Positions 43,664 to 50,440 of a DNA stretch of 50,785 nucleotides are shown here, in pieces. A model generated the notes under the pieces. The model ran no database searches. It saw nothing but the letters and a program-made list of their open reading frames with translations, and had not been told where the DNA came from. Positions within the stretch are counted from its first letter, which is position 1. Each line of letters begins with the position of its first letter. Both the position numbers and the translations under genes were made by a program. The stretch is from Candidatus Omnitrophota bacterium (GTDB lineage: Bacteria > Hinthialibacterota > Hinthialibacteria > Hinthialibacterales > JAKPRU01). Location of the stretch: the NCBI GenBank assembly GCA_029570205.1, contig JAKQSI010000024.1:1-50785 (forward strand), written 5' to 3'.

Positions 43664-45280
43664 TTACGCGGTGGAGTAAACAACATTCTCCTGCCTACTA
43701 TGTAGAGTTGGAATTGATAACTTCGACTCGATAAGCTCGGCGCGCATTCGGGCAATCCGGAATGAGTCGATGGCACGGTACAATCTGGCCGCAATCTCCG
43801 GTTTCTTCATTTCCTCCTCAACACGCGCTAATTGATAAAGGGCGTATGTCCGCCATCGTCCATGGGGATATTTCTGGATATAGATCGAAAGGCTTTTCTC
43901 GGCGTTAGCTGAGTTACCTGTTTCATAATGGCATTGCGCCATGAAATAGAGAATATCCTCGGCTGCGGAGGGAGAACAATTTTCTGAGGCCTTGAGATAG
44001 GCTTGTATTGCCTCGATCGGATGACCCAGCAACTGGAGAATCCGGGCATTCTGGTAGGTCAGCAGATTGGCATGAGCCTCTTCCCGTCTCTTCAGAAAAG
44101 CCGGGTCCCGATAGGAGACAAAAGAATGGAACGGATAATCCCAGATTCCTGTCGGATTTGTGGCTGTACCGTCCTCAAGTGTAACCGACTCGGTAACCAT
44201 TTGCTGGAGTCGGTCCGGATCGACATACACCGAGGGATGAGGCGGCAAAATGCGGATATATGACTCCAGCAGTTGGAACTTCGGGAGAACCCCCTCGGCC
44301 TGACAAGTCGCACCGACTCCCGCGTGAAGATATCTCTCGAATTGTTCTTTTAGAGGCACATTGTCAGGTTCTGCAAAGAGGCGTTGCCGGATTGAGACCA
44401 GGGTCGCCGGCTCGCCTGTGTCTTCAAACATAACCAGGGACCCGTGGACGGTGTCGCACAGAAGCCACTGGTCCGATGCGCATACCCGGCACAGCGTATG
44501 GCTGGGTTGGACCGTTGTTTGGGTTGCGCTTGCGATTTCCGGTTCCCCGAGCAGAACGACCGTCGAGTCCAGACCCGCCCGATCACACAAGAGAGAAAGT
44601 GCCCACGCAGATCGATCACAGAGACCGAATCCCCGCAGCAAAACATCTACCGCTCCCACATTGATCACATCCGGTTCCCAAAAGGCAATATGAAGAAAAA
44701 CCCACTCCAGAAGTTTTTCTACTTTCTCCCGGTCGGTGACGCACCCGGCAACAAGTCGATCTGCAATACATTGCAGAAAATGACAGCGACGGAGATACTG
44801 AGAATCCTCCGTGGTGAAAACCGCACTGTTGACAACATCCGGTTTCAAGTTCCATTCGGCCTGATAGCGCATCAGCACAGGACCGGCTGCGGGAAAAGGA
44901 ACCCATTTCGCTGCTTGAGTTAGAAGCGATGCGGATTTTTCATCCTGACCGATCCAGGCCATCAGAATGCCTCGAATAAACAGATCATGAACTGTCCCTG
45001 TTGAAATCCTGTCCAGCGCTTTCAAAGCCGCGTCATACTCGAGACTGTTTATGAGATGAACGACATTTGCGTATTTTTCGGCGTACAACGATTCATCAAA
45101 TGCCGCCTTGATATCAACGCGAGCGCTTGAAACCGCTTCGGTTTGCTTCTCGTTTCGCGCTCGGCCCAAATAAACGAAAAGCAGAAAGGCGATCATCACA
45201 CCTAAGCTGAGTAACGGCAGGAAGATATCTTTGCGAGTTCGCGGCGGGCGAGAAGGGGAATTGGATTTATCGGATGACAT
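43664..45280 (-). CDS. Membrane-anchored transglutaminase-like protein with TPR-like C-terminus
   Basis: A 538-residue protein. A basic N-terminus and one membrane segment (IFLPLLSLGVMIAFLLFVYLG, about 19-39) anchor it, with the rest probably periplasmic. Residues about 185-280 form a transglutaminase/cysteine-protease-like domain with a full Cys221-His261-Asp276 set (GFGLCDRSAWALSLLCDRAG, PSHTLCRVC, LLCDTVHG). Residues about 400-520 contain helical repeats of TPR type (ILYFMAQCHYETGNSANAEKSLSIY). Such proteins may cleave or modify peptides, but the substrate is unknown. ATG 45280 has an AGGAGG site; the frame is open to 45442. It is divergent from the hybrid kinase gene. Confidence 0.8.
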   Translation of the reverse strand: MSSDKSNSPSRPPRTRKDIFLPLLSLGVMIAFLLFVYLGRARNEKQTEAVSSARVDIKAAFDESLYAEKYANVVHLINSLEYDAALKALDRISTGTVHDLFIRGILMAWIGQDEKSASLLTQAAKWVPFPAAGPVLMRYQAEWNLKPDVVNSAVFTTEDSQYLRRCHFLQCIADRLVAGCVTDREKVEKLLEWVFLHIAFWEPDVINVGAVDVLLRGFGLCDRSAWALSLLCDRAGLDSTVVLLGEPEIASATQTTVQPSHTLCRVCASDQWLLCDTVHGSLVMFEDTGEPATLVSIRQRLFAEPDNVPLKEQFERYLHAGVGATCQAEGVLPKFQLLESYIRILPPHPSVYVDPDRLQQMVTESVTLEDGTATNPTGIWDYPFHSFVSYRDPAFLKRREEAHANLLTYQNARILQLLGHPIEAIQAYLKASENCSPSAAEDILYFMAQCHYETGNSANAEKSLSIYIQKYPHGRWRTYALYQLARVEEEMKKPEIAARLYRAIDSFRIARMRAELIESKLSIPTLHSRQENVVYSTA

Positions 45281-45433
45281 GAGATGCGCGCCTCCTGATT
45301 CATAATATGAGATTTGGACGGCCCTTAGAAGAGATCCGTTGGGGGCGCAGTTGTACACATTAGACGGGCGTTCAGGCACAAGCAGAACAGATTGAAAAAA
45401 AGCGATCAAATAAAACTTTGTTGACAAATCCCT

Positions 45434-45462
45434 TTGACGCAAGGACTTGTGGACGGTATAAT
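45434..45462 (+). promoter_or_regulatory. Strong sigma-70-type promoter of the hybrid kinase gene
   Basis: TTGACG (45434-45439), a 17-bp spacer and a perfect TATAAT (45457-45462) are 36 bp upstream of the GTG start at 45498. This is one of the best housekeeping promoters in the window. Confidence 0.8.
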
Positions 45463-45497: not shown

Positions 45498-47174
45498 GTG
45501 CCTCATCCGACATATTTGCACCATTTGGAGGAGCTCAAGAGAGCCATCACATCAGGAGATGGGGATAAGGCTATCGCCGCTGCCATCGGGTTGGAGCAAG
45601 TCGCGAAACAATACCGAACTCTCCTGGAACAAGCGAACGATGCCATTCTGATTCTGGAACCGGAATCGGGCCGGATACTGGACTGGAACTCCAGGGCTGA
45701 AACGCTTCTTGTTTACAATGCTGCAAGTTTAGCGAGCATGAGCCTGTGGGATTTATTTCCCGAGAGCGAATTACCCACCCAGCGTCAGGAATTCGAGAGA
45801 AATCAAGTTGAGACAAATGTCATAACCTCTGAGATATCAATTATTTGTGGTGATGGGACCCGTCGGTTTGTGGACAGTTCCTCATCGTTGGTCCGATTCG
45901 GAGACCGGAGTGTGGTTCAGGCGATATTGAGGGATGTCTCGGAACGTGTCCGCCTGAAAAAGGAGACCGAGAAGTACGCGGAGGAGTTGGAGAACAGGAA
46001 CAAGGAGTTGGCACGGGCACAGAGACTGAAATCTGAGTTCCTTGCCTCGATGTCGTACGACTTATTGACTCCTGTGGAGGCGATCCAGGGCCACTGCGGG
46101 ATTCTGCTGGATGATGAGCTTCACGATGCATTGACCCCATTAGAGCGTAAAGAGATCCTGCGCAAGATGGAGAAGAAAGCGTCACACTTGAAATCGTTGA
46201 TTTCCCGATTGCTGGAGCTGTCCCGTCTGGAAGCGGGGGCGGTCTCGGCGCTGAATGAAGATGTGGATCTGGTTTCCCTGGTGCATGAGGAATTCGAGCC
46301 ATATCGCAATGAACTGGCAGAAAGGGGATTGCGAGGCGATGTTCTTTCGGAGAACAGGTGTATTATCTGCCGGACGGACCCGGTGAAATTGGGCAACATT
46401 GTTCGGCTGTTGCTCGGGAATGCCGTCAAGTTTACGGAGCGGGGTGAAGTGACGGTTTCTGTGAGGGTAGATGGAGCCACAGCGGTTTTGTCGGTGCGCG
46501 ATACGGGGGTCGGGATGGAGCATGAATATCTTGAAGACATTTTCGGGATATTTCGGACTCATGAGAGATCGTTCACCCGTCGGGACTTGGGACCGGCCCT
46601 GGGACTGTCACTGGTCAAAAAATTCTCGGATCTTCTGGGTGGACAGATCGAGATTGAAACGGAGATGGGGCGCGGGACTGTGTTCACGCTTCGTCTGCCC
46701 GACACGGTTCTTCGTGTGCAGCCGTTCGCGGAGGAATCCGGTTTCTCCGGCAAGAACGGCATCCGTGACGCATTGGTGGTGGACGATGACCGATACACGG
46801 TGGAGATGCTGAGCGAGTTTCTGGAGTGTGTCGCCCATTGCCGAGTTCGGAAAGCCTATTCGGGTGTGGATGCTCAATTGCGCCTTACGGAACAGCGTCC
46901 TGACTTTCTGTTTGTCGACCTGATGCTTCCCCAGATTAACGGGGAGCGACTTCTCCATTACTGTGGGAGCATGTGGGGAGAGAACGCGGTCACCAAGATT
47001 GTGGTAACCGGCAAGATTCTGACCTCCGAGGAGCGGTCCCGCCTCTTGCAGCGCGCCGCTGCTGTGATCGACAAGCGTAACCTTCGGACAGATGTTCTTC
47101 GCAATCTCCTCTCCTCTGCTTTGAACCTGGATCATAGCGCTGTGCCTGCGCATCAGGCGGAAGGGTGGGGATAG
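45498..47174 (+). CDS. PAS-containing hybrid histidine kinase homologue lacking the phospho-acceptor histidine
   Basis: A 558-residue soluble signalling protein. Domains in order: PAS (about 38-150, AILILEPESGRILDWNSRAE), a short coiled coil, a HisKA-like dimerisation domain (about 178-245), HATPase (about 260-400: Asn308 in GNAVKFT, Asp335 in DTGVGM, GPALGLSL) and a C-terminal receiver (about 428-545: VDDD, Asp474 in FVDLML, VTG, DKRN). The H-box reads SYDLLTP instead of SHELRTP: Tyr187 replaces the phosphorylated His. It cannot autophosphorylate in the normal way and may act as an ATP-binding scaffold, a receiver target or a regulator of another kinase. GTG 45498; no transmembrane segment. 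Confidence 0.88.
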   Translation: MPHPTYLHHLEELKRAITSGDGDKAIAAAIGLEQVAKQYRTLLEQANDAILILEPESGRILDWNSRAETLLVYNAASLASMSLWDLFPESELPTQRQEFERNQVETNVITSEISIICGDGTRRFVDSSSSLVRFGDRSVVQAILRDVSERVRLKKETEKYAEELENRNKELARAQRLKSEFLASMSYDLLTPVEAIQGHCGILLDDELHDALTPLERKEILRKMEKKASHLKSLISRLLELSRLEAGAVSALNEDVDLVSLVHEEFEPYRNELAERGLRGDVLSENRCIICRTDPVKLGNIVRLLLGNAVKFTERGEVTVSVRVDGATAVLSVRDTGVGMEHEYLEDIFGIFRTHERSFTRRDLGPALGLSLVKKFSDLLGGQIEIETEMGRGTVFTLRLPDTVLRVQPFAEESGFSGKNGIRDALVVDDDRYTVEMLSEFLECVAHCRVRKAYSGVDAQLRLTEQRPDFLFVDLMLPQINGERLLHYCGSMWGENAVTKIVVTGKILTSEERSRLLQRAAAVIDKRNLRTDVLRNLLSSALNLDHSAVPAHQAEGWG

Positions 47175-47626: not shown

Positions 47627-49159
47627 ATGAAAGCATCACAAAGTCCACTGACAATGGGCCGTCTTTTGCGCGTCACGGCGATTGTTGCTGTGACCTCGTT
47701 GTTCTGTGTTTCGATTTCGGATATGGCGGGAGCGCGTTCGGCGCAGGCGCTGAAAGAAATGAGCCAGGCGTTCTCCAACGCGGCAAAGAAGGTGACTCCG
47801 TCGGTGGTACATATCCGCACACTTAAGACGGTCACCCCCACCGAGAGTTTTTCATTTGAGGATTTTCCACCGGATTCTCCGTTCGCGCCGTTTTTCGAGC
47901 ATTTCCTGAATCCCAGAGACCGGGGGGACAACCGGGAAGATCGCCGGAAACAGGATAGCGAACCGGGCGAAGTGCCTTATGGGATGGGGTCTGGGCTTGT
48001 TGTGACTCCCGACGGATACATTCTCACAAACAACCATGTTGTGGATGAGGCCGACAAGATTGAGGTTCGGTTGAGAGTCGGCGGACATGACAAGACCTAC
48101 ACGGTTGATATGAAAAACAATCCTCCTCGTCAGGATCCTGTTTCCGACTTGGCGGTTATCAAGATCGACGCGAAGGATCTTCCGGTTCCGGAGTTGGGAG
48201 ATTCCGACCAGTTGGAAGTGGGTGAATGGGTGATCGCCATCGGGAATCCGTTTGGGCTGGACCAATCTGTGACGGCAGGGATAGTGAGTTATCTGGGACG
48301 TGGGCCGATGGGCGGTCCCCAATTCGGCGATTTTATTCAGACGGATGCGGCAATTAATCCGGGTAACAGCGGCGGACCGCTGGTGGACCTGGATGGAAAA
48401 GTGGTTGGGATTAACGCGGCGATTGCGACTGGCAGTCCGTTCGAGCGCAGTTATGCCGGAATTGCGTTCACGATTCCGATCAATATCGCCAAATCCGTCA
48501 AAGATGCTCTGATTGAAAAAGGTTCTGTCACAAGGGGATACCTTGGAGTTGGGATTACCGCAGTGGGCGAAGAGGTCGCCAAACACGAGAATCTGGAGAA
48601 CCAGGACGGCGCCCTGGTGAACAGTGTACAGGATGGCACTCCCGCAAAAGAAGCCGGAATACAGGTCGGCGACATTGTCATCGAGCTGAACGGAGAGAAA
48701 ATCAAGGGACCCTCGGAATTGCAGCTGAAAATAGCCGCCATTACTCCCGGTGAGAAAGCAACCCTGACAATCCTGCGTCACGATGGCGATTCATACAAAG
48801 AGAAGAAGATCCAGGTGACAATCGGCACGCGACCCAGTAACGAGGAAGTTGCCGAGGTCTCCGCGCCATTAACGAGCAAGAATCTCGGCATGACGGTGCA
48901 GGATCTGACGGAATCCACGGCGCAGAGCCTGGGATATACCATGGGTACGGGTGTTTTGGTGACGGATGTCGCGCCATACAGCCCCGCGGCCAATGCCGGG
49001 ATTCAGCAGTACGATCTGATCCGGCAGGTGAATCATCAGCCGGTGAAAACGGTTGCCGAATTCAAAGAAGCGTTGGCCAAACGAGAGGATTCGGCTCTCC
49101 TGGTAGTGCAGCGCCAGAAAACCAAAGACACGTTTATTACGGTAATCGAGATGAAGTAG
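47627..49159 (+). CDS. degP: Periplasmic serine protease/chaperone DegP (HtrA/Do family)
   Basis: A 510-residue envelope quality-control protease. A signal or anchor (VTAIVAVTSLFCVSISDMAGA) comes first. The trypsin-like domain has the complete triad His137 (TNNHVV), Asp174 (SDLAVI) and Ser248 (NPGNSGGPL). Two PDZ domains follow (about 290-390 with YLGVGI and GIQVGDIVIELNG, and about 410-500 with TGVLVTDVAPYSPAANAGIQ). The length and two PDZ domains match the Do/DegP type. AGGAGG precedes the start. It is a single gene followed by a terminator. Confidence 0.95.
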   Translation: MKASQSPLTMGRLLRVTAIVAVTSLFCVSISDMAGARSAQALKEMSQAFSNAAKKVTPSVVHIRTLKTVTPTESFSFEDFPPDSPFAPFFEHFLNPRDRGDNREDRRKQDSEPGEVPYGMGSGLVVTPDGYILTNNHVVDEADKIEVRLRVGGHDKTYTVDMKNNPPRQDPVSDLAVIKIDAKDLPVPELGDSDQLEVGEWVIAIGNPFGLDQSVTAGIVSYLGRGPMGGPQFGDFIQTDAAINPGNSGGPLVDLDGKVVGINAAIATGSPFERSYAGIAFTIPINIAKSVKDALIEKGSVTRGYLGVGITAVGEEVAKHENLENQDGALVNSVQDGTPAKEAGIQVGDIVIELNGEKIKGPSELQLKIAAITPGEKATLTILRHDGDSYKEKKIQVTIGTRPSNEEVAEVSAPLTSKNLGMTVQDLTESTAQSLGYTMGTGVLVTDVAPYSPAANAGIQQYDLIRQVNHQPVKTVAEFKEALAKREDSALLVVQRQKTKDTFITVIEMK

Positions 49160-49271: not shown

Positions 49272-49345
49272 TTCCCTCCCCCGAAGATCGGGGGAGGTCA
49301 GGTGGGGGTTGACAGCATTGAAACTACCACCCCCCTCTGAGACGC
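49272..49345. repeat. CCTCCCCCG/CGGGGGAGG dispersed repeat next to the IS end
   Basis: CCTCCCCCGAAGATCGGGGGAGG is a 9-bp palindrome (49275-49297), followed by TCAGGTGGGGGTTGACAGCA, then ACTACCACCCCCCTCTGAG. It is related to the repeat inside the 35586-36971 gene and at 13396. Confidence 0.7.
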
Positions 49346-49396: not shown

Positions 49397-50440
49397 TCAA
49401 GTCCAATGAGACAGTTCCGTTTGGAAATTAGTGAGTGTTTCTTGTGTTGAACTTCTTTGGTCTGGCGGGTTGATCCAGACCGCTTTCGGGAGTGCAGCGA
49501 CTACCGGGGTTCCTCGGACGAATCGTTCCGGATGGTCGCGGTAGGCCTCCGCCAACACTTGGCGCCGTGCCGCCAGCGCCGCCTCCCCATGACCGAAATG
49601 CACCGTCTCCGGTGTCAGCCACGCAATCCCCGAATGATGGTGTTCTGTGTTGTACCACGTGAAAAACTCACGACAAAACGATTGCGCATCCTCAATACAC
49701 CCGAATCGTTTCGGAAACTCCGGACAGTATTTCAACGTCTTGAACTGACTCTCCGAAAACGGGTTGTCGTTCGAGACATGCGGGCGACTGTGACTTTTGG
49801 TCAGACCCAAGTCGGCCAGGAGCATTGCGACGCCTTTCGATGTCATGGACGGCCCCCGATCCGCATGAAGGGTCAACTGGTCGCGTTGGATGTTCTGTTT
49901 CGCGCAGGTCTCCTCGATCAATCGTTTCGCCAGGGTTTCCGATTCCCGACTCGCCACCATCCAGCCCACCACGTACCGACTGAAAATGTCCAGAATCACG
50001 TACAGGTAAAAATAGGTCCATTTCTCCGGTCCCAAGAGTTTGGTGATGTCCCACGACCAGACTTGGTTGGGCCGGGTCGCCAACAATTCCGGCTTGCTGT
50101 ATTGCGGATGCCGGGCCTGATTCCGGCGTTCCCGCACCTCCTGGGCCGCTGCCAGAATCCGGTACATGGTCCGCACCGAACACAGGAACCGGCCCTCATC
50201 CAGGAGCGTCGCATGCACCTCTCCCGGGGATCGGTCCACGAACCGTTCCGAATGCAACTGCGCGAGAACCTCTTGCCGTTCCGGTTCCGAAAGCGCCCGG
50301 TCCGGTTTCGGGCGGGGACGCAGGGGCTCCGGTTCGGATGCAGGCCGAATCGACCGATACAATGTGGATCGCGCCACCCCCAGCGCCCGGCACGCGCGGG
50401 ACACGCCGGTCACTGGAGCCAATTCCTGGACCGATTCCAT
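49397..50440 (-). CDS. IS3-family transposase OrfB
   Basis: A 347-residue DDE transposase. An HTH-like start (VSRACRALGVARSTLYRS), an HTH_21 segment and an rve integrase core with Asp131 (WSWDITKL), Asp194 (LHADRGPSM) and Glu230 (NPFSESQFKTLKY), 35 residues between the last two, complete the active-site triad. The frame is full length. The start ATG overlaps the OrfA stop (TGATG), and -1 frameshifting at an A9 run upstream (50504-50496) would also produce an OrfAB fusion through an open frame. Confidence 0.95.
   Translation of the reverse strand: MESVQELAPVTGVSRACRALGVARSTLYRSIRPASEPEPLRPRPKPDRALSEPERQEVLAQLHSERFVDRSPGEVHATLLDEGRFLCSVRTMYRILAAAQEVRERRNQARHPQYSKPELLATRPNQVWSWDITKLLGPEKWTYFYLYVILDIFSRYVVGWMVASRESETLAKRLIEETCAKQNIQRDQLTLHADRGPSMTSKGVAMLLADLGLTKSHSRPHVSNDNPFSESQFKTLKYCPEFPKRFGCIEDAQSFCREFFTWYNTEHHHSGIAWLTPETVHFGHGEAALAARRQVLAEAYRDHPERFVRGTPVVAALPKAVWINPPDQRSSTQETLTNFQTELSHWT

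Follow-up and report, generated by a model that had tools for sequence, protein, structure and literature searches.

We describe a hybrid histidine kinase gene of Candidatus Omnitrophota in which Tyr has taken the place of the phospho-acceptor His, a recent substitution that fell on an ATP-binding core already degenerating. The gene lies at 45498..47174 on the forward strand of the stretch of DNA analysed (the window, 50,785 nucleotides). It begins with GTG and encodes a protein of 558 aa with the domain order PAS-HisKA-HATPase_c-REC. With moderate confidence we regard the protein as a pseudo-histidine kinase with an attached receiver, which has recently lost autophosphorylation and would act in a DivL-like manner through another kinase or regulator. 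The initial annotation had suspected a pseudokinase, and this is the best-supported reading; an error is excluded by a second genome, G002, and the loss of activity is deduced from the sequence.

All four domains score above the Pfam gathering scores: PAS_9 (43.9 bits; PAS domain at residues 38-152, 45609..45953), HisKA (48.3 bits; DHp domain, residues 178-247, 46029..46238), HATPase_c (82.3 bits; CA domain, residues 294-402, 46377..46703) and Response_reg (40.7 bits; REC, residues 425-545, 46770..47132), all on the forward strand. One chain carries HisKA, HATPase_c and receiver, as in active hybrid histidine kinases of the HisKA type. Such kinases have a phospho-acceptor His in the H-box; here the H-box reads FLASMSYDLLTPVEAIQGH with Tyr187 at the acceptor position (codon TAC, 46056..46058, forward strand), which confirms the substitution noted in the initial annotation. 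His occupies this place in all 21 other HisKA matches of the same genome, one of them a 66-aa fragment. Among 290 diverse genomes, the canonical H-box pattern with Tyr, F-[LIVMF]-x4-Y-[DE]-x-R-T-P, gave a single match, a count to be read with the limit that the pattern demands Arg-Thr-Pro and would miss degenerate boxes lacking the Arg, such as SYDLLTP. The match, in genome G078, lies outside any kinase ORF and was dropped as a second Tyr kinase. The His version of the pattern was present in 221 of the 290 genomes, with 644 matches in the first 165. A Tyr-bearing H-box is thus rare among HisKA kinases, within what an Arg-requiring pattern can detect.

The genus is represented by three genomes in the collection: that of the window (G000), G001, which matches isolate USCA_maxbin.089 (L033), and G002, which matches Candidatus Omnitrophota isolate JPNA_maxbin.304 (L032). 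G002, a second species-level genome from a separate assembly with 95% amino acid identity to the G000 protein, has TAC too; G001 (86% identity) has CAC, that is His. Outside the genus, the order supplies five orthologues (G003, G004, G005, G007 and G008; 37-38% identity to the G000 protein), which have the same DHp-CA-REC order and all read HELRTP. G006, the ninth genome of this order, yielded no orthologue with a similar score. Conservation of the Tyr, which had been named as a check on the substitution, therefore holds for G000 and G002, but G001 and the order-level orthologues have His, so that Tyr is found in only two of eight orthologues. The presence of His in G001 and in the five order-level orthologues shows that His is the ancestral state and that a single, recent CAC-to-TAC transition preceded the split of G000 and G002, which are separated by a synonymous distance of 0.14, as against 0.60 to G001.

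The H-box is not the only damaged part of the catalytic core. The H-box Arg has become Leu190 (46065..46067; HELRTP to YDLLTP), and the G2 box has Ala367 where its middle Gly belongs (46596..46598; GAGLGL to GPALGL). Both changes occur in all three congeners, including the His-bearing G001, whereas the order-level orthologues keep Arg and Gly. At the first N-box Asn position (residue 304, 46407..46409; all three codons on the forward strand) G000 and G002 have Leu and G001 has Val instead of the N-box Gln/Asn; in the order-level orthologues this residue is Gln. Functional kinases of known structure, for example HK853, carry Arg, Asn and Gly at the three corresponding places. The order-level hybrid kinases thus share orthology and domain order with the 558-aa protein, but differ in keeping HELRTP, the Gln and GxGLGL, and most of them lack PAS, which the three congeners share with G008. 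From this distribution the losses of Arg, N-box and G2 residues are genus-wide and older than the loss of His. Other parts of the core have survived: Asn308, Asp335, the phenylalanines of the F-box, and Asp188 and Thr191 beside the acceptor position. The claim that N-box, G1 Asp and receiver Asp are preserved accordingly stands for Asn308, Asp335 and Asp474, but the N-box has lost its first Asn and the G2 box its middle Gly, and neither is intact. The structure model (mean pLDDT 76) predicts the ATP lid (residues 350-368) and the linker poorly and therefore tells little about ATP binding; its fold matches are histidine kinases in general.

At the N-terminus, a helical stretch AI-SGD--KA (residues 8-30, 45519-45587) is common to all eight orthologues, with Gly20 and Ala25 invariant even where PAS is absent. 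The end of the protein (47148-47174) varies: CAG at codon 553 gives G000 a slightly longer tail, and in G002 and G001 TAG at this codon ends the protein after SAVPAH.

The receiver has a complete active site. The acidic residues D429-D430-D431, the phospho-acceptor Asp474 (46917..46919, forward strand), T504 and K526 provide the acidic pair, Asp, Thr and Lys of a functional receiver, and D474, T504 and K526 are invariant among the orthologues, Asp474 in all eight. Three residues before the receiver Lys stands Val, not Tyr or Phe. Relay-type receivers usually lack Tyr/Phe at this position and do not signal through a Thr-Tyr switch (PMC9981736). By this residue the domain would be of relay type rather than output type.

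Pseudo-histidine kinases are known mainly from DivL, whose Tyr is conserved across the alphaproteobacteria. The 558-aa protein resembles DivL of Caulobacter and other alphaproteobacteria in carrying Tyr where a HisKA-type DHp has its acceptor residue, in its PAS input and in a CA domain that is kept but weak or abnormal, and DivL (4q20_B) is among the fold matches of the protein model (TM 0.71 by target length). DivL, with Tyr550, has no kinase activity and controls CckA (PMC4211667). It differs in having multiple PAS domains and no receiver, as against one PAS and a C-terminal REC in the 558-aa protein, whose Tyr moreover arose recently and is not shared by the whole genus. A further difference is Leu190, which stands at the position of DivL R553, three residues after Tyr550 and required for binding of DivK~P (PMC4211667); the docking chemistry therefore cannot equal that of DivL. 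By the tests made, the protein does not appear to be a DivL family member, and at most it may work like DivL in outline. A second parallel is the ChrS variant of Corynebacterium glutamicum, a recently inactivated histidine kinase that continues, as a pseudokinase, to influence signalling through its paralogue, the kinase HrrS (PMC9491836). That variant, however, was laboratory-evolved, lost its CA domain by frameshift and kept its His.

A strong promoter of its own had been assigned to the gene, and this was borne out, as a consensus match, by a sigma-70-type sequence, TTGACG-N17-TATAAT (45434..45462, forward strand), which matches the consensus at 11 of 12 positions and whose hexamers and spacing are fully kept in all three congeners. 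Because a promoter scan of this sort is expected to return 1.8 chance sites in the region, conservation in the genus is the stronger evidence. A divergent TPR gene (43664..45442, reverse strand), with a transglutaminase-like middle part recognised by eye, is the only neighbour found beside the kinase gene in all three congeners. The flanks of the pair (43664-45442 for the TPR gene; 7849-11272 in L059) differ between G001 and the other two, as if kinase and TPR gene had moved together. Downstream of the kinase gene, an HtrA-type protease is encoded at 47627-49159 and a transposase at 49397-50440. Beside the HtrA gene (49272-49328) stands a short intergenic repeat that recurs, with 89-93% identity, twice at the G001 locus (L059, 4796-4839 and 16749-16805), one of these copies at the edge of the rearranged block. 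There, the pair of kinase and TPR gene has another hybrid kinase and a REC-SpoIIE regulator directly beside it. The same block lies on another contig in G000, so its adjacency is no evidence of partnership and it was rejected as the partner. The order-level orthologues have no neighbours in common with the window. Phosphorylation by another kinase, as first proposed, would suit the intact receiver, but the search for a donor was negative: neighbourhood comparison identified no partner kinase, HPt or regulator, and the kinase gene is an orphan.

Selection after the loss of His was assessed on a single genome pair with few substitutions, G000 vs G002, which differ in the whole gene by 29 nonsynonymous and 51 synonymous changes (dN/dS 0.166); neighbouring genes of the same pair range from 0.05 to 0.38, with the kinase gene inside this range. 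The gene as a whole departs from neutrality (P 4e-11), as do PAS (0.005), DHp (0.008) and REC (5e-5), and the REC dN/dS vs G001 of 0.06-0.07 is the lowest of the domains. For the CA domain of this pair neutrality is not rejected (8 vs 7, P 0.12; P 0.16 with a stronger transition bias). The nonsynonymous share in CA is larger in recent than in older differences (8:6 vs 10:27 codons, P 0.057), and perhaps the ATP domain is relaxing. ATP binding, which had been assumed, is doubtful, with residues 304 and 367 abnormal across the genus and CA the one domain not rejecting neutrality. Purifying selection on PAS, DHp and REC argues that the protein is maintained without its acceptor residue.

What such a maintained protein does may be read in more than one way. 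The main rival, itself rather unlikely, is a phosphatase-only sensor, in which kinase activity is lost and the DHp, under PAS control, removes phosphate from its own receiver or from another response regulator. Phosphatase activity commonly requires a nucleotide-competent CA domain, which counts against this, as do the relaxed look of CA and the loss of the Arg between Asp188 and Thr191. Both the acidic Asp188 after the H position and Thr191, four residues after it, are nonetheless kept, and the DHp is under constraint. In EnvZ the two activities separate at these places, His243 being needed for kinase activity and Thr247, the counterpart of Thr191, for phosphatase activity (PMC5727384). DivL, however, keeps the fold yet has neither autokinase nor phosphatase activity (PMC4211667).

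We also consider it unlikely that the gene is at an early stage of decay, an unneeded histidine kinase caught soon after inactivation with perhaps the receiver alone still useful. The stepwise loss of catalytic residues would fit, and the CA domain is indistinguishable from neutral after the change, with a raised nonsynonymous share among its recent differences. Against decay, the reading frame is still open in both Tyr-bearing genomes, PAS, DHp and REC all evolve under constraint, and the promoter has not been eroded.

Very improbable is a derivative in which Tyr187 itself takes phosphate from ATP, an option the initial annotation had called speculative and which finds no support here. The Tyr stands exactly at the acceptor position, and an early report described DivL as a tyrosine kinase (Wu 1999, as cited in PMC4211667), but a subsequent study detected no autokinase activity in DivL (PMC4211667), Leu304 and Ala367 are abnormal at the ATP site, and the change fell on a core already degenerate. 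The Pfam matches of the 558-aa protein include no BY-kinase domain. A sequencing or assembly error is practically excluded: although TAC and CAC are one base apart and the related genomes are metagenome bins, the identical TAC in G002 comes from another assembly with a protein 5% different, so that of the objection first raised (His in orthologues together with an error) the first part holds for G001 and the order-level orthologues but the error falls away.

For the preferred reading, a pseudo-histidine kinase acting through a partner, the comparisons themselves show that Tyr replaced an ancestral His in the lineage of the two Omnitrophota species, that other catalytic residues had been lost earlier, that the receiver is intact and that PAS, DHp and REC are still constrained; from these we infer the rest of the mechanism. 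PAS input would alter the conformation of the DHp, and the DHp would work by binding: it would pair with another kinase as a heterodimer, influence such a kinase allosterically, or offer a response regulator a place to dock. The receiver would obtain phosphate from another phosphorelay and serve as a further input or as a sink. Residual phosphatase activity would be the likeliest remaining chemistry, given that the phosphatase motif retains Asp188 and Thr191. Only tentatively, and with low expectation, we extend this to a stepwise conversion within the genus, first of ATP-site residues and then of His, in which another relay phosphorylates REC and thereby governs the dead DHp and, through it, a partner kinase. 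If this is true, the receiver of a former hybrid kinase has become an input to partner-kinase control.

By itself the protein adds a young case, of independent origin, to a known phenomenon and brings no new mechanism. One His-bearing and two Tyr-bearing versions, 86-95% identical, allow the sequence of losses to be followed, which offers a natural before/after pair for testing how an enzyme is converted into a pseudokinase.
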